16,318 nt of DNA, taken from the NCBI GenBank assembly GCA_030613505.1, contig JAUWLW010000057.1:1-16318 (forward strand). Reading direction: 5' to 3'. The notes below the pieces were generated by a model that had not been told where the DNA came from, searched no databases, and saw only the letters and a program-made list of their open reading frames with translations. Position numbers and translations under genes: made by a program. Of the stretch, positions 423 through 11,703 are shown in pieces; the stretch's first letter is position 1, and each line of letters opens with the position of its first letter. Origin of the DNA: Candidatus Zixiibacteriota bacterium (GTDB lineage: Bacteria; RBG-13-66-14; B26-G2; WVWN01).

Positions 423-2558
423 ATGGCTTTGAAGTATCTTAAATCCCTCAGTTTATTATATTTGGCTTGCGGCGCGTTCGCGCCGGCCTTGGCCGGCGAG
501 CCCCCCCCCACGTCCCAAGACCCCGTTATTGCCGCCGCGTTAAAAGATATCACGCCGGGCGCCCTCGAAGGTTATATTCAAACGCTGCAAAATTATAAGA
601 GCCGGTATTCTTATATGCCCGGGTGCGACGAGGCTCGCGATTATATAAGGCAAACTTTGGCGGCCTTCGGCTATTTTACGCGCCTGCAGGAGTTCGAGGG
701 CCCGTACCTCAAGAAGGTATATTGGGGCGACGTCGGCAAAACGGCCTGGGCGTTGACCGCGGGGAGCACGTTGTACAATTCGGCGGACGGCGGCGCGACG
801 TGGCGGCGCCAGGTTCCGGCCGCGCCCGGCTACGTCTACGACGCCCACTTCGTCGACGCCTCCGTCGGGTACGTGGCGTCGGCCAAAGGCGCGATAGTGA
901 AGACCGAGGACGGCGGCAGTACGTGGGAGAGCGTCCGCGCCGAAAAGTCGACCTCCGACGCCGTACGCGCGATATTCTTCCTCGACCGCGACGTGGGCTG
1001 GGCGGCGTGTGGCGGCGGGGCCTCGAGCCGCGTCTTCCATACCGTCGACGGCGGCGCGAACTGGTCCGTCCAAATGTTGCCGCCCTACGGTTGCCCCCAC
1101 GTCTTGGCCTTCGGCGACGCCAAGAAGGGTTGGGCCGTCCCCAACTGGTACGAGGACAACGTCGTCCTCCGGACCGAGGACGGCGGCGCGACGTGGGCGG
1201 CGCAGGATTTTCCGGTTCCGCCGGCGGACGTGCGTTCGTTAGCGGTCGTTGACGGCGAGGTCGCCTGGGCGGCGTACGGCGGCCCGGGCCTCATCTATAC
1301 CGACGACGGCGGCCGGAACTGGTCGTACGTCGGGATGCCCTCGCAGGTCGTCGTGACGGCTGTTTGCTTCGTCGACGCCGCCACCGGGTACGCCGCCGGC
1401 GACGGCGTAATATATAGAACCGACGACTACGGCGGGACGTGGCTGCCGCTTTCGGGCGCCCCGGAGGTCTTTTGGGGTAACGCGGCTTTCGGCGACGCCG
1501 ACCACGGCCTGTTGGTCGACCTCTTCGGCCGCGAGTTGTATTTAACCCGCGACGGCGGCCGGACCTTCGAGAATATCCGCGGCCGGCTGGATATGTATTG
1601 GGAGAACGTAATAGCGGAGAGCCGCGGCTCGGCGGCCCCCGACGAGATCGTTCTCCTGGGGGCCCATTACGACTCGGCCTCCGACAGGCCGGCGGACGGC
1701 GCGCCCGGCGCGGACGCTAACGCCTCCGGCGTGAGCTGCGTCCTCGCGGCCGCGGCGGCTTTCCGAAACCTCGACGTCGACCGAACGCTGCGGCTCGTCC
1801 TCTTCGGCGGCGGCGAGCAGAGCTACATCGGCAGCCGCGCCTACGTCGAGGAAGCTTTGGCCAAGGACGAAAATATCGTCGCCGCGGTCATATTGGACAT
1901 GGTTGCGTACGACGAGGACCGGGGCCGGCGCGACGACGTCGTCGTTAGGGTGGACGGCCGCTCGGTGTGGCTGGGCGACTACGTGGCCGCGATCGGCAGG
2001 CTCTACGGCCTCGGTTTGATATTCGATTATCACCTCTACGGCGGCCCCGGCGACCATTGCTCTTTTTGGGATAGCAATTACGAGTCCATCGGCCTTTTCG
2101 AGGGGGGCCCGGGTTACAATACCGACCCGGTTTACCCCTACTATCACACGCCGGAAGACACGGTGGATAAATTGAACCTCGCCCTCGCGGCGTGGGTGGC
2201 GAAGGCCGCGGCCGCGACCGCCGGGCACCTCGCGCGCTCGGGCTATATCGGTGTGGGGGAAGACGCGGTAGCGGAGGGGACAAAACCGCGCAAGCGCCCT
2301 TGGGCCGTCTATCCCAACCCGTTCGCGTACGGCTCGGCCGCCGGGATAACGTTTGACGGCGTCTCGGCCCCCGCGGCCTTGACTGTTTACGACGTCGCCG
2401 GCCGGAAAGTCGCTTCCGTCGCCGTCGCCGCGGGGGTGGAGCGTTTCGTGTGGCGGCCCGGGCGCGACGGCGCGCCGCTCGCGCCGGGGATTTACGTCTA
2501 CCGTGTTTTGGGGGAAGGCCAGCGCAAGGTCGGCAAATTGGTCGTCGCCGGACGGTGA
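423..2558 (+). CDS. Secreted M28-family metallopeptidase homologue with inserted seven-bladed YCF48/BNR-like propeller and sorting domain
   Basis: This 711-residue protein starts with a signal peptide ending near 'ALAGE' (about residue 25). Residues ~43-93 look like the N-terminal part of M28 peptidases ('GCDEARDYIRQTLAAFGY'). The fold is then interrupted by seven repeats of about 42 residues with a DGGxxW-type turn (residues 122, 163, 209, 253, 295, ~335, 377), as in YCF48/BNR propellers. The M28 domain resumes at ~392 and the zinc ligands H415, D431, E465, D492 and H575 are all present. The Glu that normally precedes the E465 ligand and acts as general base is Gly ('FGGGEQSYIGS', G464). M28 enzymes are exopeptidases that remove single amino acids; with this change the protein may be inactive, altered or a binding protein. 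Residues ~623-711 form the sorting domain. It has its own promoter and terminator, so it is likely monocistronic. Fold assignment is confident; activity is not. Confidence 0.88.
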   Translation: MALKYLKSLSLLYLACGAFAPALAGEPPPTSQDPVIAAALKDITPGALEGYIQTLQNYKSRYSYMPGCDEARDYIRQTLAAFGYFTRLQEFEGPYLKKVYWGDVGKTAWALTAGSTLYNSADGGATWRRQVPAAPGYVYDAHFVDASVGYVASAKGAIVKTEDGGSTWESVRAEKSTSDAVRAIFFLDRDVGWAACGGGASSRVFHTVDGGANWSVQMLPPYGCPHVLAFGDAKKGWAVPNWYEDNVVLRTEDGGATWAAQDFPVPPADVRSLAVVDGEVAWAAYGGPGLIYTDDGGRNWSYVGMPSQVVVTAVCFVDAATGYAAGDGVIYRTDDYGGTWLPLSGAPEVFWGNAAFGDADHGLLVDLFGRELYLTRDGGRTFENIRGRLDMYWENVIAESRGSAAPDEIVLLGAHYDSASDRPADGAPGADANASGVSCVLAAAAAFRNLDVDRTLRLVLFGGGEQSYIGSRAYVEEALAKDENIVAAVILDMVAYDEDRGRRDDVVVRVDGRSVWLGDYVAAIGRLYGLGLIFDYHLYGGPGDHCSFWDSNYESIGLFEGGPGYNTDPVYPYYHTPEDTVDKLNLALAAWVAKAAAATAGHLARSGYIGVGEDAVAEGTKPRKRPWAVYPNPFAYGSAAGITFDGVSAPAALTVYDVAGRKVASVAVAAGVERFVWRPGRDGAPLAPGIYVYRVLGEGQRKVGKLVVAGR

Positions 2559-5811: not shown

Positions 5812-5840
5812 TTGACACCTCGTGAACGGGTTGGTAAACT
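5812..5840 (+). promoter_or_regulatory. Sigma70-type promoter heading the lipid-gene operon
   Basis: A perfect TTGACA at 5812-5817 is followed by a 17-base spacer and TAAACT at 5835-5840 (4 of 6 to TATAAT). The leader before the ATG at 5881 would be about 34 bases, with a GGGAGCGAG ribosome-binding site just upstream of the start. This is the only convincing promoter seen ahead of the run of seven plus-strand genes. Confidence 0.72.
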
Positions 5841-5880: not shown

Positions 5881-6786
5881 ATGAAACGAGTACTTTCCTT
5901 CATCGCGGTAGTAGCTTTAGCGGCGGCATGCGCGGCGACGTTGTCATGCCGGCGAGGCGAAGACATTTCGGAGACGGAAGCGAACGTCGTGCTGCTCGGG
6001 CCGACGTTCGACCCGGCGCGGGCGCCGAAGCAGTTCGGGCCGCTCACGTCCTATCTTCAGGAGAACGTCGGTCAGCGGTTCGAGTTCCGCCCCACCAAGT
6101 CGCGCGAGGAATTCGCGTCGTTGGTTACGGAGGGCAAGGCCGCCTTCGTCTTCGCCAATCCCTTGGACTACTTCGAGGTCGCCGACCAGTGTATCGTCCT
6201 CGTCAAGCCCAATTACCCCGGTATGGGGTCGATGGCCCAAGGGTGCATTGTCGTCAAGGAGGGAGAGGCGGTGAAGATCCGCGAGGTCACCGAGTTAAAG
6301 GGAAGCTCGATTATGATAGTGTCGAAGAGCGCGCTCGACGGCTACCTGTCGCAGAAGATGTTCTTCGACCGCAGCGGCCTCGACCTCGACCTCGACTTCG
6401 ACCTCCGCGAGTCCCCCGACGGGACGGCGGAGAGCGTCGTCGCCGCGGTGGCCGCGGGGGAAGTGGAGTACGGCTGCGTGCCGGCCGACCTCTTCCCCGA
6501 CCGTAAACCATTTAAAGGGACCGAGGTTTTAACGTACTCCGAGAAGGTGCCGGTAGAGGTCTTCGCCTTCGTCCAAATGGGCGGCGACAAGATGTTGGGC
6601 GGCAAGGTGCGGGACGTTTTGAAAGCCATCCCGAAGGGCGACCCGGTGTTGAAGCCGCTGGGGGTGGAGAACTTCATCCTGGCCGCGCCGGCGGAGTACG
6701 GCCTGGTGACCAATTTCCTGATCCAGGATAAAATAGAGAAGGCTCAACGATTGTCCGAGGCGCCGGCGGAGGCCGGTGAGTCTTAA
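5881..6786 (+). CDS. PhnD-like phosphate/phosphonate-type substrate-binding lipoprotein (orphan)
   Basis: This 301-residue exported protein resembles the periplasmic component of phosphate/phosphite/phosphonate ABC importers. It has a hydrophobic N-terminal signal (residues ~4-20) followed by 'ATLSCRR', a plausible though imperfect lipoprotein cleavage site. The body has family traits: 'VVLLGPTFDPARAPKQFGPL', then 'LVTEGKAAFVFANPLDYF', and a second lobe with 'GTAESVVAAVAAGEVEYGCV'. The family clamps a small anion between two lobes. No permease or ATPase gene lies beside it, so a transport role is unsupported; it could act with components encoded elsewhere or as a sensor or binding protein. 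A short CTCGAC-type tandem repeat encodes the Leu-Asp stretch around residues 167-174. The gene is first in the operon, 12 bp ahead of the phosphatidyltransferase. Confidence 0.8.
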   Translation: MKRVLSFIAVVALAAACAATLSCRRGEDISETEANVVLLGPTFDPARAPKQFGPLTSYLQENVGQRFEFRPTKSREEFASLVTEGKAAFVFANPLDYFEVADQCIVLVKPNYPGMGSMAQGCIVVKEGEAVKIREVTELKGSSIMIVSKSALDGYLSQKMFFDRSGLDLDLDFDLRESPDGTAESVVAAVAAGEVEYGCVPADLFPDRKPFKGTEVLTYSEKVPVEVFAFVQMGGDKMLGGKVRDVLKAIPKGDPVLKPLGVENFILAAPAEYGLVTNFLIQDKIEKAQRLSEAPAEAGES

Positions 6787-6798
6787 GACCTACCTAAA

Positions 6799-7404
6799 TT
6801 GCGAGCGCTTCACGAATTAGGCCGGCGGGTAAGCGATAAATTATTATATCCGCCGGCCCGTTTAATGGGCCGGCTCGGCGTCAGCCCTACCGTTTTCACG
6901 CTACTCGGCTTGGCGTTGGCCGTGGGGGCGGGGGTGGCGTTCGCGTTCGGCCGGTTGCGCACCGGCGCGCTGCTCGTGCTGGCGGCCGGCTTCGCCGACA
7001 TGGTCGACGGCGCCGTGGCGCGGGCGGGGGAAAGCGGCAGCCCGTTCGGGGCGTTCATGGATTCGGTCGTAGACCGTTACAGCGAGGCCGCTTACTTCAC
7101 GGGGTTGGTTTATTTTTACGCCGCGGGCCGGGATAAGATTATGGCGGTCCTCATCGTCCTCGTTTTAACCGGCTCGCTCTTGGTATCGTACACCAAGGCC
7201 CGGGCCGAGAGTTTGATAGACGAGTGTAAGGTCGGAATAATGGAGCGGCCGGAGCGGGTTATCCTCCTCGCGTTGGGTTACCTCGTGGGGGGATACGGCG
7301 CTTTGGCGGCGCTGATACTTTTGGCGGCGTTGACGCATTTTACGGCGATCCGCAGGATATTGTATACGCGGGCCAAGCTCGCGTCGTCCTCTCGGGGTCG
7401 TTAG
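6799..7404 (+). CDS. CDP-alcohol phosphatidyltransferase family enzyme (membrane phospholipid synthesis)
   Basis: This integral membrane enzyme of 201 residues carries the complete family signature DG(x2)AR(x8)G(x3)D(x3)D: D70, G71, A74, R75, G84, D88 and D92. These residues bind the metal and the CDP group. The family moves a phospho-alcohol between CDP-lipid and a polar alcohol, so this gene should set a phospholipid head group; the exact alcohol cannot be read from the sequence. About six hydrophobic segments are visible. The start is the TTG at 6799: the first ATG (6865) would remove a conserved N-terminal helix, and an upstream in-frame stop (6784-6786, that of the preceding gene) limits the choice. 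With UbiA and geranylgeranyl-reductase genes next door, an archaetidyl-type head-group transferase is a reasonable but unproven assignment. Confidence 0.88.
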   Translation: MRALHELGRRVSDKLLYPPARLMGRLGVSPTVFTLLGLALAVGAGVAFAFGRLRTGALLVLAAGFADMVDGAVARAGESGSPFGAFMDSVVDRYSEAAYFTGLVYFYAAGRDKIMAVLIVLVLTGSLLVSYTKARAESLIDECKVGIMERPERVILLALGYLVGGYGALAALILLAALTHFTAIRRILYTRAKLASSSRGR

Positions 7405-7445
7405 GGCCGTGGCTGTCGCGCCGGGTCGCGCCGCACGGAGAGAAG

Positions 7446-8306
7446 ATGGTTCGTAAACGGGACCCTAACGCCGCGGCGTTGGGCTTTATACGTTTAGTGC
7501 GGCCCGCGGATTGGGGAGTAGCTTTCGCCGGCGCGAGCCTGGGCGCTTGGCTCGGGGGCGGCGCTTTTCGCTTCGTCGTGGCGTTAGCCGCGGCGGCCGT
7601 CGCGACGGTCATAGCCGGCGCCTTCGTCAACGGCGATTGGTACCACCGGCGCACGCGGGTATTGGCGAGCCCCCGCAACCCCATCGCGCGCGGCCTGGTT
7701 CGGCCGGGCGAGGCGAAGTGGTTGGGCATCATATTGCTCGCGGCCGGCCTGGCCGCGGCCGCTTACCTCGGCCTACGAACCTTCGCCGCCGCGTTCTTTA
7801 CGGCGGCGATTGTATTATTGTTCAATTATTTTTTCGATAAGGCGTACTTCGCCCGCAACGTCGTCGCCGCGAGCGTGGTGGCCTTGCCGGTATTCTGCGG
7901 ATGGTTTGTTTTCGGCGGCGCTGCGGACCCGCCGGTGGTGGCCGCGGCCGTGGGCGGGTTGGTCGCGTTGTCGGTGAGCGTATTTCGGGACGTCGAGAAC
8001 CGAGACGGCGACGAGGTGGTGGGCCGGAAGACCATAGCCGCTGCGGGTGGGCGCTTCCCGGTATGGGTGGCGGGCGCGTTCGCGCTCGCCGCGACGGCGA
8101 TTGCGATCGTCCCGTATTGGGTCGGCGAATACTCCCGCCGGTACCTGACGTTCGTAGCCGCCGTGGGCGGCCTTATGATATTCTATACGATCCTAAACCT
8201 CCGCCGCCCCGAACCGGACCCGTTGTTGGCGGGTTCTACGGCGAGGATGTTTAAATTTTTAATTTTCGTATATTTCGTCGGAACGTACTGGGAGGTCTTT
8301 TTGTAG
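7446..8306 (+). CDS. UbiA-family prenyltransferase (possible digeranylgeranylglyceryl phosphate synthase-like)
   Basis: This 286-residue protein is mostly hydrophobic, with about eight or nine membrane segments, as expected for UbiA enzymes that transfer a prenyl chain from a diphosphate to an acceptor. The second aspartate-rich motif is present ('FRDVENRDGDEVVGRKT', D182, E184, D187, D189), and 'SPRNPIARGLV' matches the family's 'APxRPIPSG' loop. The first motif, normally NxxxDxxxD, reads 'NGDWYHRRTR' from N62 and lacks both spaced Asp residues, so metal-diphosphate binding must differ or activity may be altered. GGAGAGAAG just before the ATG supports the start. The neighbours (CDP-alcohol transferase before, GGR-family reductase 4 bp after) suggest ether-lipid synthesis. 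Quinone, tocopherol-like or other isoprenoid acceptors cannot be excluded. Confidence 0.85.
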   Translation: MVRKRDPNAAALGFIRLVRPADWGVAFAGASLGAWLGGGAFRFVVALAAAAVATVIAGAFVNGDWYHRRTRVLASPRNPIARGLVRPGEAKWLGIILLAAGLAAAAYLGLRTFAAAFFTAAIVLLFNYFFDKAYFARNVVAASVVALPVFCGWFVFGGAADPPVVAAAVGGLVALSVSVFRDVENRDGDEVVGRKTIAAAGGRFPVWVAGAFALAATAIAIVPYWVGEYSRRYLTFVAAVGGLMIFYTILNLRRPEPDPLLAGSTARMFKFLIFVYFVGTYWEVFL

Positions 8307-8310
8307 CGGT

Positions 8311-9516
8311 ATGGCTTCGTACGCGGAAGAAGTGCTCGCGCGGGAATACGACGTGGTCGTCGTGGGCGGCGGACCGGCTGGCTCCGCGGCGGCGCTGTCG
8401 TTGGCGCGGGACGGCGTGAAGGCGCTGCTGCTCGAGCGTAAGAGAGAGGCCGGCCAGCCGGTGCGCTGCGGCGAGGGCGTCCCTCGGAAGAAGTTCGAGT
8501 CGCTGCTCGAGCTGGACGAGAAGTGGGTGAGCGCCGTCGTCAACGGCGGCGTGGGCCATTCGCCCTCCGGCATCACCGTCCGGCGGGATTACCCGAACGT
8601 GGGGTACGTACTGGACCGGGAGGTGTTCGAGCGCGGCCTTTTCGCCCGGGCCGCGGAGGCCGGCGCGACGACGCTGCTCGGCGCGGAAGGCCGCGACGTT
8701 CGGATTACCGGCGGCGGCGCGGAGGTCGACGTCGTATGCGAAGGCCGGTTGCGGCGGACCGTTTCCTGCCGCGCGCTGGTGGGCGCGGACGGCGTCGAGT
8801 CCGTCGTGGGCCGGACGGCGGGCCTCGCTACCGCGATATCGCCGGCCGACGTGGACGTCTGCGCCGAGTATATATTGGCCGGCGCCCGCGAGGAGTTCCC
8901 CGACTACGTCCATTTCTTCCTGGGGCGGTGTTTCGCTCCCGGCGGCTACGCCTGGGTATTCCCGAAGGGTGACGGCCTGCACGCCGTCGGCGTGGCCATT
9001 ACTCCCGCGGAGGCCGCGGGCCGCGGCCCCTTCCACTACCTCGATGCTTTCGTCGCCAAGCGCTTTCCCGGCGCTAAGGTCGTCGCCGTGCGATCCGGCG
9101 CGGTCCCGGCCTGCAAGCCCCTGCCGAAAATAAGAAACGACTGCGTCGCGCTCGTCGGCGACGCGGCCCGGCAATCGGACCCGTTCTCGGGCGAGGGGAT
9201 CTGCCAGGCGCTGACGGCGGGGCGGTTCGCGGCGCGCGCCATTAGCCGGGGCCTGGGGAACGGCAACCTGGCGCGGGAGCTGGAGGGGTACCAGGAAGAA
9301 TGGATGGATACGTACGGCCGGCGGTACAAACAGCATTACAAAGTCCGCCGCGTGATTTTGGCGATGGAGGACGGCGAGATCGACGATACGGTCGAGATAT
9401 TGCGCGACAAGCTGGAAGTGGGCAAGATACAGTCGTCCGATATATTCGCCACCTTCTTAAAGGCTTTGCTGAAAAACCCCAAACTCGTGCTGCGCTTGCG
9501 GCACCTTTTAAGTTGA
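8311..9516 (+). CDS. Geranylgeranyl reductase family FAD-dependent oxidoreductase
   Basis: This 401-residue flavoprotein has an N-terminal Rossmann motif 'VVVVGGGPAGSAAA' (GxGxxG at residues 19-24) ending at acidic E42, which binds the FAD ribose. The family-typical 'PVRCGEGV' contains C53. Further motifs are the 'GGYAWVFPKG' block at 211-220, which corresponds to the YxWxFPK substrate-site signature, and the FAD-phosphate motif 'GDAARQSDPFSGEG' at 283-296. Such enzymes saturate double bonds of geranylgeranyl chains: archaeal glycerolipids, the chlorophyll tail, or menaquinone side chains. The four-base spacing from the UbiA gene suggests that the reductase acts on the product of that prenyltransferase. 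The substrate is inferred from context. The C-terminal ~70 residues are charged and helical. Confidence 0.9.
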   Translation: MASYAEEVLAREYDVVVVGGGPAGSAAALSLARDGVKALLLERKREAGQPVRCGEGVPRKKFESLLELDEKWVSAVVNGGVGHSPSGITVRRDYPNVGYVLDREVFERGLFARAAEAGATTLLGAEGRDVRITGGGAEVDVVCEGRLRRTVSCRALVGADGVESVVGRTAGLATAISPADVDVCAEYILAGAREEFPDYVHFFLGRCFAPGGYAWVFPKGDGLHAVGVAITPAEAAGRGPFHYLDAFVAKRFPGAKVVAVRSGAVPACKPLPKIRNDCVALVGDAARQSDPFSGEGICQALTAGRFAARAISRGLGNGNLARELEGYQEEWMDTYGRRYKQHYKVRRVILAMEDGEIDDTVEILRDKLEVGKIQSSDIFATFLKALLKNPKLVLRLRHLLS

Positions 9517-9527
9517 GGGCGTAACGT

Positions 9528-10244
9528 ATGGAAGGCCTGAGCGATTTCGACGCGTCAGTGGCGCTGGCGGAACTGGACGTCCGTAAAAAAGAACTCGACG
9601 CGCTCGCGGCGTCGCTGCCCACCGAGGCCGAGGGAAGGGATGTTGACCTGGCCGCCCGGCGGGACGAGCTCGAAAAACTCCAGAGAGGTTTCGAGATCGC
9701 GCAACGTGAGCGCCGACGCCTCGAAGCGGAGGTGGACGATAAGACGCAGCTACTGGGGAAGTACCGGACGCAGCTGGACTCGGTCAAGACCAATAAGGAA
9801 TACCAGAGCCTGCAGCACGAGATCGCCGTCACCCGGGAAGATATCTCGCTCATGGAGGACAAACTGCTCGAGCTTTTGGACGAGGTCGAGAGGACGCAAC
9901 GCGAAGTCGACGAGAAACGGCGCACGCTGGAGCAACTCACGGCTGACGTCGCCGCCGCCAACGAGGAGGCGAAAGCCCGCCTGAAAGACGCGGAAGTCCA
10001 ACTCATCGAGGTGGAGGAGAAGCGCAAGCGGTTGCTGCCGGCCTTGTCGCAGGCCGTCCGCGCCGAGTACAAACGCCTGTTCGAGCGTTACGGCGGGAAC
10101 GCGTTCGCTGCCGCGGCCGAGGGCGTGTGCCAAGGTTGTTTCGTGAACGTGCCGGCCAAAGTCGTGGCCGAGCTGCGCGCCGGCGGCAAGCTGTACCGGT
10201 GCGAGTCTTGCGGCCGGTTCATCATCAGCGTCGTAGAGGAATGA
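9528..10244 (+). CDS. Coiled-coil protein with C-terminal C4-type zinc ribbon (COG1579 / zf-RING_7 family)
   Basis: This 238-residue protein has a long charged heptad-rich region (about residues 10-170), which should form an extended antiparallel coiled coil. It is followed by a four-cysteine zinc ribbon, 'CQGCF' and later 'CESCGRF', the hallmark of the widespread bacterial COG1579 family. It contains the family's typical 'TNKEYQSLQHEI' segment at the tip of the helical hairpin. The molecular role in most bacteria is unknown, and binding to nucleic acid or protein has been suggested for such ribbons. GAGGG lies just upstream of the start. It sits 11 bp after the reductase and 19 bp before the radical SAM gene, so it is co-transcribed with lipid genes, but this order alone does not prove a shared function. 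Confidence 0.9.
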   Translation: MEGLSDFDASVALAELDVRKKELDALAASLPTEAEGRDVDLAARRDELEKLQRGFEIAQRERRRLEAEVDDKTQLLGKYRTQLDSVKTNKEYQSLQHEIAVTREDISLMEDKLLELLDEVERTQREVDEKRRTLEQLTADVAAANEEAKARLKDAEVQLIEVEEKRKRLLPALSQAVRAEYKRLFERYGGNAFAAAAEGVCQGCFVNVPAKVVAELRAGGKLYRCESCGRFIISVVEE

Positions 10245-10263: not shown

Positions 10264-11703
10264 GTGAAAATACTTTTCTTAAATCCCCCCTTCTTACCCA
10301 AATATTCCCGCGAACAACGGAGTCCGGCGGTAACCAAAAGCGGGACTATTTATTACCCGATGTGGTTGTCTTACGCCGCCGGCGCCGCGGCTTCCGCCGG
10401 CCACGACGTCGACCTCGTCGACTCTCCCGCCGACGAGCGCTGGACGCTCGAGCGCGTCGTGGACGCCGTCGCCGCCGAGCTGGCCGTCGTCGACACCAGC
10501 ACCCCCAGCATCGCGAACGACGCCGGCGTCGCGCGCGCTCTCAAAGACCGGCGGCCGGAGCTGAAGGTCGTATTGGTGGGACCGCACGTGTCCGCCCTTC
10601 CGGAGGAGACGCTGCGCGAGTACCCGTGGCTCGACGGCGTGCTGCGCGGCGAGTACGAGCGGACCGTTCTGGAGCTGGCCGACGTTCTGGCCGGGGGAGG
10701 GAACCCGGCCGCGGTACCCGGCGTAACGTGGCGGCGCGACGGCGACGTCGTCGCGGGTCCCGACCGCGTGCCGGAGGACCCCGACCGGTGGCCTTTCGTC
10801 GCCGAGACCTACGCCCGCTTCCTCGACGTGCGCAACTACTTCTACGCCCACAGCCTCTATCCCATCGTGACCGTACTTTCGGCGCGGGGATGCCCCAACC
10901 GCTGCATCTATTGCGTCTACCCCCAGACCTTCTCCGGCCACTCCTATCGGCCTAGAGCCGTATCCGCCGTGGTGGACGAGTTGCGCTTCATCCGCCGGAC
11001 CTGGCCCGACGTCCGCGAGGTGATGTTCGAGGACGACACGTTCTCCGTCGACCACGAGCGCACCAGGGAGCTGTGCGAGGCTATCGCCGCCGCCGGCCTT
11101 AAGCTTAAGTGGAGCGCCAACGCCCGCTGCGACCTCGACCTCGAGACGCTTAAGCTTATGAAGCGGGCCGGCTGCCGCTTATTGTGCGTGGGGGTAGAGA
11201 GCGGCTCCGACGAGATGCTGGGCGGCATGAAAAAAAGTATCGACCGCGCCCGCATCGAACCGTTCTTCGCGGACGCGGCTCGAGCCGGAATAATGATCCA
11301 CGGCTGCTTTATGGTGGGCAACCCGGGCGAGACGCGCGAGACGATGGAGGCGACGCTTGCCTTCGCCAAAAAGCTCAAACCGGACACGGCGCAGTTCTTC
11401 CCGGTGATGGCCTATCCCGGGACGGCGCTCTACCGTTGGGCCGAGAAACACGACTACCTTAGCGCGAGCTGTTTCGCCGATTGGCTTACCCCCGAGGGCC
11501 AGCACAACTGCGTCGTCGACCGTCCCGACCTCCCGGCGGCGGCGCTGGTCGCGTTCTGCGACCGCGCCCGGCGCGAATTTTATTTATCGTTCGGTTACCT
11601 CGCCCGCAAGTTCGCGCAGGTCCTCACCAGCCCGGCCGAGTTGAAGCGGACGTGGCGCTCGGGCCGGCGTTTCTTGCGGCATCTCGCACGGGGTACGCGC
11701 TAG
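10264..11703 (+). CDS. B12-binding-domain radical SAM protein (class B type, HpnJ-like)
   Basis: This 479-residue enzyme has an N-terminal cobalamin-binding-type Rossmann domain (~1-150, 'MKILFLNPPFLPKY' and 'VVLVGPHVSALPEE') and a radical SAM barrel (~195-410). The iron-sulfur cluster motif is 'RGCPNRCIYC' (C210, C214, C217; CX3CX2C). The barrel also shows 'FEDDTFSVD', 'CVGVESGSDEML' and 'GCFMVGNPGETRETMEATL'. The classical DxHxxG cobalamin motif is not evident in the N-terminal domain, as in many members of this group. The GTG start at 10264 is chosen because 'MKILFLNPP' is the normal beginning of the family. Relatives include hopanoid enzymes such as HpnJ and many methyltransferases, so a lipid substrate made by the upstream genes is possible. 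The substrate is not determinable from sequence. Its stop is two bases before the next start. Confidence 0.88.
   Translation: MKILFLNPPFLPKYSREQRSPAVTKSGTIYYPMWLSYAAGAAASAGHDVDLVDSPADERWTLERVVDAVAAELAVVDTSTPSIANDAGVARALKDRRPELKVVLVGPHVSALPEETLREYPWLDGVLRGEYERTVLELADVLAGGGNPAAVPGVTWRRDGDVVAGPDRVPEDPDRWPFVAETYARFLDVRNYFYAHSLYPIVTVLSARGCPNRCIYCVYPQTFSGHSYRPRAVSAVVDELRFIRRTWPDVREVMFEDDTFSVDHERTRELCEAIAAAGLKLKWSANARCDLDLETLKLMKRAGCRLLCVGVESGSDEMLGGMKKSIDRARIEPFFADAARAGIMIHGCFMVGNPGETRETMEATLAFAKKLKPDTAQFFPVMAYPGTALYRWAEKHDYLSASCFADWLTPEGQHNCVVDRPDLPAAALVAFCDRARREFYLSFGYLARKFAQVLTSPAELKRTWRSGRRFLRHLARGTR

Follow-up and report, generated by a model that had tools for sequence, protein, structure and literature searches.

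Gene organisation of the locus

The window, which is the entire 16,318-nucleotide stretch of DNA analysed here, corresponds to contig C81 in a genome of 2.86 Mb and 93% completeness. Three contiguous genes on its forward strand encode a CDP-alcohol phosphotransferase, a UbiA-family protein and a GGR-family reductase (Table 1). These are real genes, with open reading frames at the positions that the preliminary description had given and Pfam scores above the cut-offs: 50.2 bits for CDP-OH_P_transf (cut-off 22), 81.2 bits for UbiA (34.2) and 66.3 bits for GGR_cat (27). We compared the window with a phylum sample of 14 genomes, comprising the window genome, three other species of its genus, one of its order, two of its class and seven of its phylum. 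Completeness is at least 90% in nine of the 14, and is estimated at 100% in two.

Table 1. Features of the window around the three lipid-related genes.
Feature	Positions	Strand	Remarks
Promoter-like site, TTGACA-N17-TAAACT with TG	5812-5840	+	Consensus scan alone; no evidence of function
PhnD-like substrate-binding lipoprotein, orphan	5881-6786	+	First gene of conserved unit; Phosphonate-bd 97.9 bits
CDP-alcohol phosphotransferase	6799-7404	+	201 aa; TTG start
UbiA	7446-8306	+	286 aa
Degenerate first aspartate motif, GDWYHRRTR for NDxxDxxxD	7632-7658	+	Codons 63-71 of ubiA; from alignment
Second aspartate motif, DVENRDGD	7989-8012	+	Codons 182-189 of ubiA; fourth position N/S in genus, D elsewhere
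GGR	8311-9516	+	401 aa
CdsZ/CT398-type coiled-coil zinc-ribbon protein	9528-10244	+	Conserved neighbour of ggr phylum-wide
B12-binding radical SAM protein, HpnJ-like	10264-11703	+	378.8 bits, under the 577.6 cut-off

All four species of the genus share the gene order phnD-cdpOH-ubiA-ggr-cdsZ, so chance does not account for the unit. Identities to the window for cdpOH, ubiA and ggr are 89, 90 and 93% in one congeneric species, 81, 72 and 81% in another, and 75, 69 and 75% in the third. The open reading frame coordinates give gaps of 12, 41, 4 and 11 bases between successive genes; together with the conserved order, this makes it very probable that the five genes form a single transcription unit. 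The promoter-like site lies about 40 bases upstream of the phnD-like ATG, and may mark the start of the operon. The PhnD-like lipoprotein is always the first gene of the unit across the genus, and no transporter genes adjoin it in the window.

There are also two matches to T9SS-type sorting tails, one above the cut-off and one just below, and the closest named bacterial relatives of the GGR are from Edwardsbacteria and Zixibacteria; both observations fit an FCB-like lineage. Elsewhere in the window (423-2558), a secreted protein joins Ycf48-like repeats, an M28-type aminopeptidase region and a T9SS sorting tail.

Kinship of the UbiA protein and the reductase

The UbiA protein falls within a DGGGP synthase clade of 41 rows (support 93/81), apart from the MenA, ChlG, EboC-like and decaprenyl-phosphate phosphoribosyltransferase rows. 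Within it, the protein groups with FCB homologues (support 81/99). Model scores point to the same placement, while deep support in the tree is moderate, from a bootstrap that had not settled. The reductase groups with FCB and archaeal lipid GGRs and apart from BchP, the sole chlorophyll row, which sits on a long branch; the tree holds no MenJ rows. A few distant plasmid sequences served solely as additional tree rows. FCB-type bacteria are the nearest named bacterial kin, and the earlier suggestions of an FCB link and of kinship with archaeal-type lipid enzymes are borne out. The reading of UbiA as a quinone or chlorophyll enzyme was rejected on its placement in the tree and on the presence of a separate MenA gene; MenA and decaprenyl-phosphate phosphoribosyltransferase are both encoded as genes of their own. 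Insofar as kinship can be read from trees, these genes are shown to have their ancestry in the archaeal lipid pathway.

The sequence of the reductase indicates that it is catalytically intact. It scores 213 bits against TIGR02032 (GG-red-SF, cut-off 158.8) and retains the GxGxxG motif, the catalytic Cys53, PxxYxWxFP (as PGGYAWVFP) and LxGD (as LVGD). The last three features are shared with the TIGR02032 GGRs of Thermoplasma (3oz2) and Sulfolobus (3atq), from which the window protein differs in that its RxxFD motif reads RxxFE, and in that GGR genes of the phylum are partnered with polysaccharide-export genes.

UbiA has lost its active site

The preliminary description matched UbiA to the second prenyl transfer of a possible archaeal-type route, and did not record that its active-site motifs are not intact. 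We aligned the eight residues that have been studied in MjDGGGPS and AfUbiA (PMC9385802, PMC4106721). In 40 other aligned proteins these read N, D, D, Y, K, D (mostly), D and D, whereas in the genus they read G, H, R, F/I, D, D, N/S and D, such that six of the eight are altered in all four species. In the window protein, Gly63, His67, Arg71, Phe126, Asp131 and Asn185 stand for Asn, Asp, Asp, Tyr, Lys and Asp, residues that the 40 relatives keep in 39, 39, 40, 40, 40 and 40 cases, respectively.

The losses extend over all three motifs. Across all four species of the genus the first reads GDWYHRRTR, as in the window, or GDW[FL]HRxxR. In the second, Tyr125 and Lys130 (MjDGGGPS numbering), present in 40/40 other rows, are replaced in the genus by Phe or Ile and by Asp. 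In the third, Asp180 and Asp187 are kept and Asp183 has become Asn or Ser. The window protein retains Arg19, Asp64 and Asp189. An earlier alignment register, which placed window Asn62 opposite the motif asparagine, was superseded when more sequences set GDWYHRRTR against NDxxDxxxD; the catalytic aspartates of the first motif are lost under either register. We rejected sequencing error or misassembly as the cause, as the loss is common to four separate assemblies at 69-90% identity. A second UbiA-like protein in another genome (G052, L032:9258-10283) has the motif NDYFHRETD, in which a first-motif aspartate has become histidine and the other motif residues are kept.

The active site is intact in the genome from the same order (G004), in one from the same class (G005) and in the f5 genomes, and the loss therefore occurred on the branch leading to the window genus. 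On this stem branch, UbiA has accumulated 2.13 changes per site compared with 0.88 for GGR. Within the genus, dN/dS is 0.12-0.21 for ubiA, 0.11-0.18 for ggr and 0.09-0.15 for cdpOH; these values are rough for the more distant species, where synonymous distances are high, and the closest pair gives 0.12 for ubiA. By this measure, ubiA is shown to be under purifying selection like its neighbours. An AlphaFold2 model of the window protein displays a confident UbiA fold (pLDDT 92.1), with MjDGGGPS (6m31) as the best fold match (Z 28.9, r.m.s.d. 4.3 across 277 residues). The window protein thus resembles MjDGGGPS in family, clade, full-length fold and adjacency to a GGR gene, but differs at Asn62, Asp66, Asp70, Tyr125, Lys130 and Asp183, which are Gly, His, Arg, Phe/Ile, Asp and Asn/Ser in the genus, and in belonging to a genome without a GGGP synthase.

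In relatives of UbiA, mutations at the N/D positions abolished or weakened GPP binding and abolished function (PMC4106721). The Mg/diphosphate site has thus been lost in this genus, and the window UbiA is, as judged from its residues, a conserved protein without a prenyl-diphosphate-binding site. We consider this selected DGGGPS homologue lacking an active site, which the preliminary description had passed over, to be the most interesting feature of the locus. A limited literature search found no precedent for a UbiA pseudoenzyme, and one may exist. The non-catalytic subunits of soluble prenyl diphosphate synthases, such as the GPPS small subunit and OsGRP, are prenyltransferase-fold partners that have lost catalysis. 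Both (3qkc and 5xn6) are among the weaker fold matches of the UbiA model; they are soluble and of a different family, and offer an analogy only.

A CDP-alcohol enzyme with an inositol-phosphate pocket

The first of the three enzymes has an unbroken CDP-alcohol signature (DMVDGAVAR...GAFMDSVVD), in line with the preliminary description. The best NCBIfam models are archaetidylinositol phosphate synthase (149.3 bits, cut-off 180) and phosphatidylinositol phosphate synthase, PIPS (133.7 bits, cut-off 170), with both scores below the cut-off. Among proteins of solved structure, RsPIPS and enzymes of the M. tuberculosis PgsA1 type match it best. When it is aligned with RsPIPS and MtPgsA1, the inositol-phosphate pocket (Ser132, Lys135, Pro153, Arg155 and Arg195) proves to be kept, with the binding residues of PIPS enzymes taken from PMC4634129. 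The window enzyme therefore has both the signature and the pocket of RsPIPS (5d92) and MtPgsA1 (6h53), and its genome encodes an inositol-phosphate synthase; it differs from the prokaryotic PIPS enzymes in being slightly nearer to the archaetidylinositol-phosphate model, while lying under both curated cut-offs. On these residues, it is assigned to the phosphatidyl/archaetidyl-inositol-phosphate synthase type.

Inositol-phosphate synthase is encoded in 13 of the 14 phylum genomes, including the window genome, and adjoins the orthologous PIPS gene in two of them (G010 and G011). Bacterial CdsA is present in 8/8 genomes tested, the window genome among them. Because both enzymes are encoded, CDP-diacylglycerol is likely to be the donor; taken with the PIPS-type residues, they suggest ordinary phosphatidylinositol phosphate as the simplest product. 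The preliminary description had assigned this enzyme to head-group addition on an archaeal lipid, a role that is not supported, since an inositol-phosphate-type enzyme can use ordinary CDP-diacylglycerol where CdsA is present.

Enzymes of the archaeal-type route in the genome and phylum

The preliminary description had noted that GGGP synthase and CarS are missing from the window; the search of the whole genome found neither, and the lack of a GGGP synthase is an outcome that the description itself had named as refuting its reading. For GGGP synthase (PF01884), profile searches gave no match in the 14 phylum genomes (0/14), with no candidates in the window genome, whereas, of 19 named bacteria with a related GGR, the same search was positive above the cut-off in 16 (a 17th matched below the cut-off), as it was in both archaea tested (2/2). 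CarS (PF01864) was likewise found in 0/14 phylum genomes, with positive controls in all four archaeal genomes. G1P dehydrogenase was not found in the window genome, where the sole Fe-ADH_2 (PF13685) match, on contig C90, was rejected as a candidate as it is AroB by TIGR01357 (271 bits). Orthologues of this AroB gene occur in G001 and G003, and the other PF13685 matches in the phylum are below the cut-off. Polyprenyl diphosphate synthases are present in the genome.

FCB genomes have been reported (Villanueva et al. 2020; PMC7852524) to carry GGGP and DGGGP synthases, and this pair was shown to produce unsaturated archaeol in E. coli. The window is similar in having a bacterial DGGGPS-like UbiA of FCB kin, and also has a GGR, but differs in that GGGP synthase is absent across its sampled phylum. 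Co-localisation of GGGP and DGGGP synthases in bacteria was reported as seemingly restricted to Cloacimonetes (PMC7852524). A complete module, in which ubiA and ggr directly neighbour a GGGP synthase gene, is found in two Poribacteria (L094:4731-7929 and L097:4900-7981) and in an archaeon (L112); compared with this, the window locus appears as a stripped and rebuilt version.

Synteny with polysaccharide-export genes

The order genome (G004) has the arrangement ubiA-ggr-Poly_export-Wzz-CdsZ-radicalSAM, while one of the class genomes (G005) has ggr-Poly_export-Wzz-CdsZ, without ubiA. The f5 genomes encode two GGR paralogues, one beside ubiA and the other beside Poly_export-Wzz-CdsZ. The order ggr-Poly_export-Wzz-CdsZ is conserved across the phylum (L246, L247, L248, L249 and L022). 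The window genus keeps ubiA-ggr-cdsZ-radicalSAM, with the PIPS gene upstream, and Poly_export and Wzz are gone from the locus. The ancestral cluster was likely ubiA-ggr-Poly_export-Wzz-cdsZ. Gene order thus connects ggr with the assembly of surface polysaccharides in this phylum, and hence suggests that the reductase may saturate a polyprenyl carrier or anchor.

An HpnJ-like radical SAM gene lies beside ggr/cdsZ both in the genus and in the order (L022:14268-15734), and in Edwardsbacteria another lies about 1.7 kb downstream of ggr (L091:8863-10245); a lipid-modifying role for this protein is possible. In G010, the ubiA-adjacent GGR is split into two overlapping open reading frames in different frames (L026:3592-4730), by a frameshift or an assembly error.

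A proposed derived descendant of an archaeal-type lipid module

The preliminary description proposed an archaeal-type isoprenoid lipid module. The ancestry of UbiA and GGR agrees with this proposal; a working pathway in this organism is not supported, given the missing GGGP synthase and CarS, the lost UbiA site and the inositol-phosphate type of the head-group enzyme. We propose instead that the unit descends, in derived and non-canonical form, from an archaeal-type (FCB) ether-lipid module, and that in it GGR and UbiA have been reassigned, an explanation that, taken as a whole, we hold with about even confidence. The CDP-alcohol enzyme would transfer L-myo-inositol-1-phosphate to CDP-diacylglycerol made by CdsA, yielding phosphatidylinositol phosphate. 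The reductase would act on a different membrane lipid and saturate its isoprenoid chain; the likeliest candidates are a polyprenyl (phosphate) carrier or anchor used in assembling surface polysaccharides, or the menaquinone that MenA makes. The dead UbiA would carry out no prenyl transfer, but may still bind an isoprenoid within the bilayer and act as a partner in the membrane, docking the reductase or presenting its substrate. This partner role and the substrate of the reductase are proposed from gene position and residues only; the 4-base gap between ubiA and ggr is counted in favour of the explanation, and the absence of Poly_export and Wzz from the locus in the window genus is counted against it. 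More specifically, that UbiA is a conserved membrane pseudoenzyme and isoprenoid-binding partner of GGR, in a lineage that dismantled the archaeal-type pathway and reassigned the reductase to envelope polysaccharide lipids, is a tentative and somewhat doubtful proposal.

It would tell against our explanation if GGGP synthase had given way to an enzyme unrelated to it, as is conceivable. On this rival reading the pathway works as in archaea, with an unrecognised GGGP-making enzyme, addition of the second chain by UbiA, saturation by GGR and transfer of inositol phosphate to give archaetidylinositol phosphate. The clade membership of UbiA and GGR, the ranking of archaetidylinositol phosphate synthase as the top (sub-cut-off) model and the intact UbiA of G004 and G005 are in keeping with this, but none of the 14 genomes has a GGGP synthase or CarS, G1P dehydrogenase was not found and the genus has lost the UbiA active site, leaving it very improbable. 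Alternatively, the reductase could act on the menaquinone chain as a MenJ-like enzyme, with UbiA incidental. The MenA gene, on contig C99, lies some 7 kb from one for a polyprenyl diphosphate synthase, and a GGR paralogue of archaea reduces menaquinone (PMC10821996). However, the window GGR scores 176.9 bits against the DGGGPL reductase model and 74.5 against MenJ, a comparison of model scores made beside a tree lacking MenJ rows, and the adjacency to ubiA and the polysaccharide-export synteny would be left unexplained; we regard this alternative as unlikely.

The remaining alternatives concern UbiA itself. Our explanation would also suffer if His67 binds a metal, as it could in principle, and UbiA is an enzyme of altered chemistry, for example with a different donor, in which His67 and Asp64 replace the aspartate motif. 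Purifying selection, the uniformity of the new residues (Gly, His, Arg and Asp are fixed in four species) and the retention of Arg19, Asp64 and Asp189 would suit such an enzyme. Against it, the tyrosine, the lysine and both metal motifs are lost, the residue set is not seen outside the genus among the aligned rows, and mutation of relatives at the N/D positions costs them their function (PMC4106721), so that the idea has a small chance of being correct. That ubiA is instead decaying, as a pseudogene in progress, agrees with its long stem branch relative to that of GGR, but the full-length open frame in four species, dN/dS values like those of its neighbours and the confident fold model make this the least credible alternative.

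When a bacterium has UbiA and GGR genes, this may be read as a sign that it makes archaeal lipids. Their co-occurrence alone is insufficient evidence for such lipids, because here both genes have been inherited from the families of that pathway while the first step is absent phylum-wide and the active site of the second enzyme is lost; for this organism, a reading as an archaeal-type pathway finds no support. The locus places a conserved, putative UbiA-fold pseudoenzyme beside an intact reductase. With the intact orthologues in the order and class as natural controls, the way in which an archaeal-type lipid route is lost and reassigned can be tested directly.
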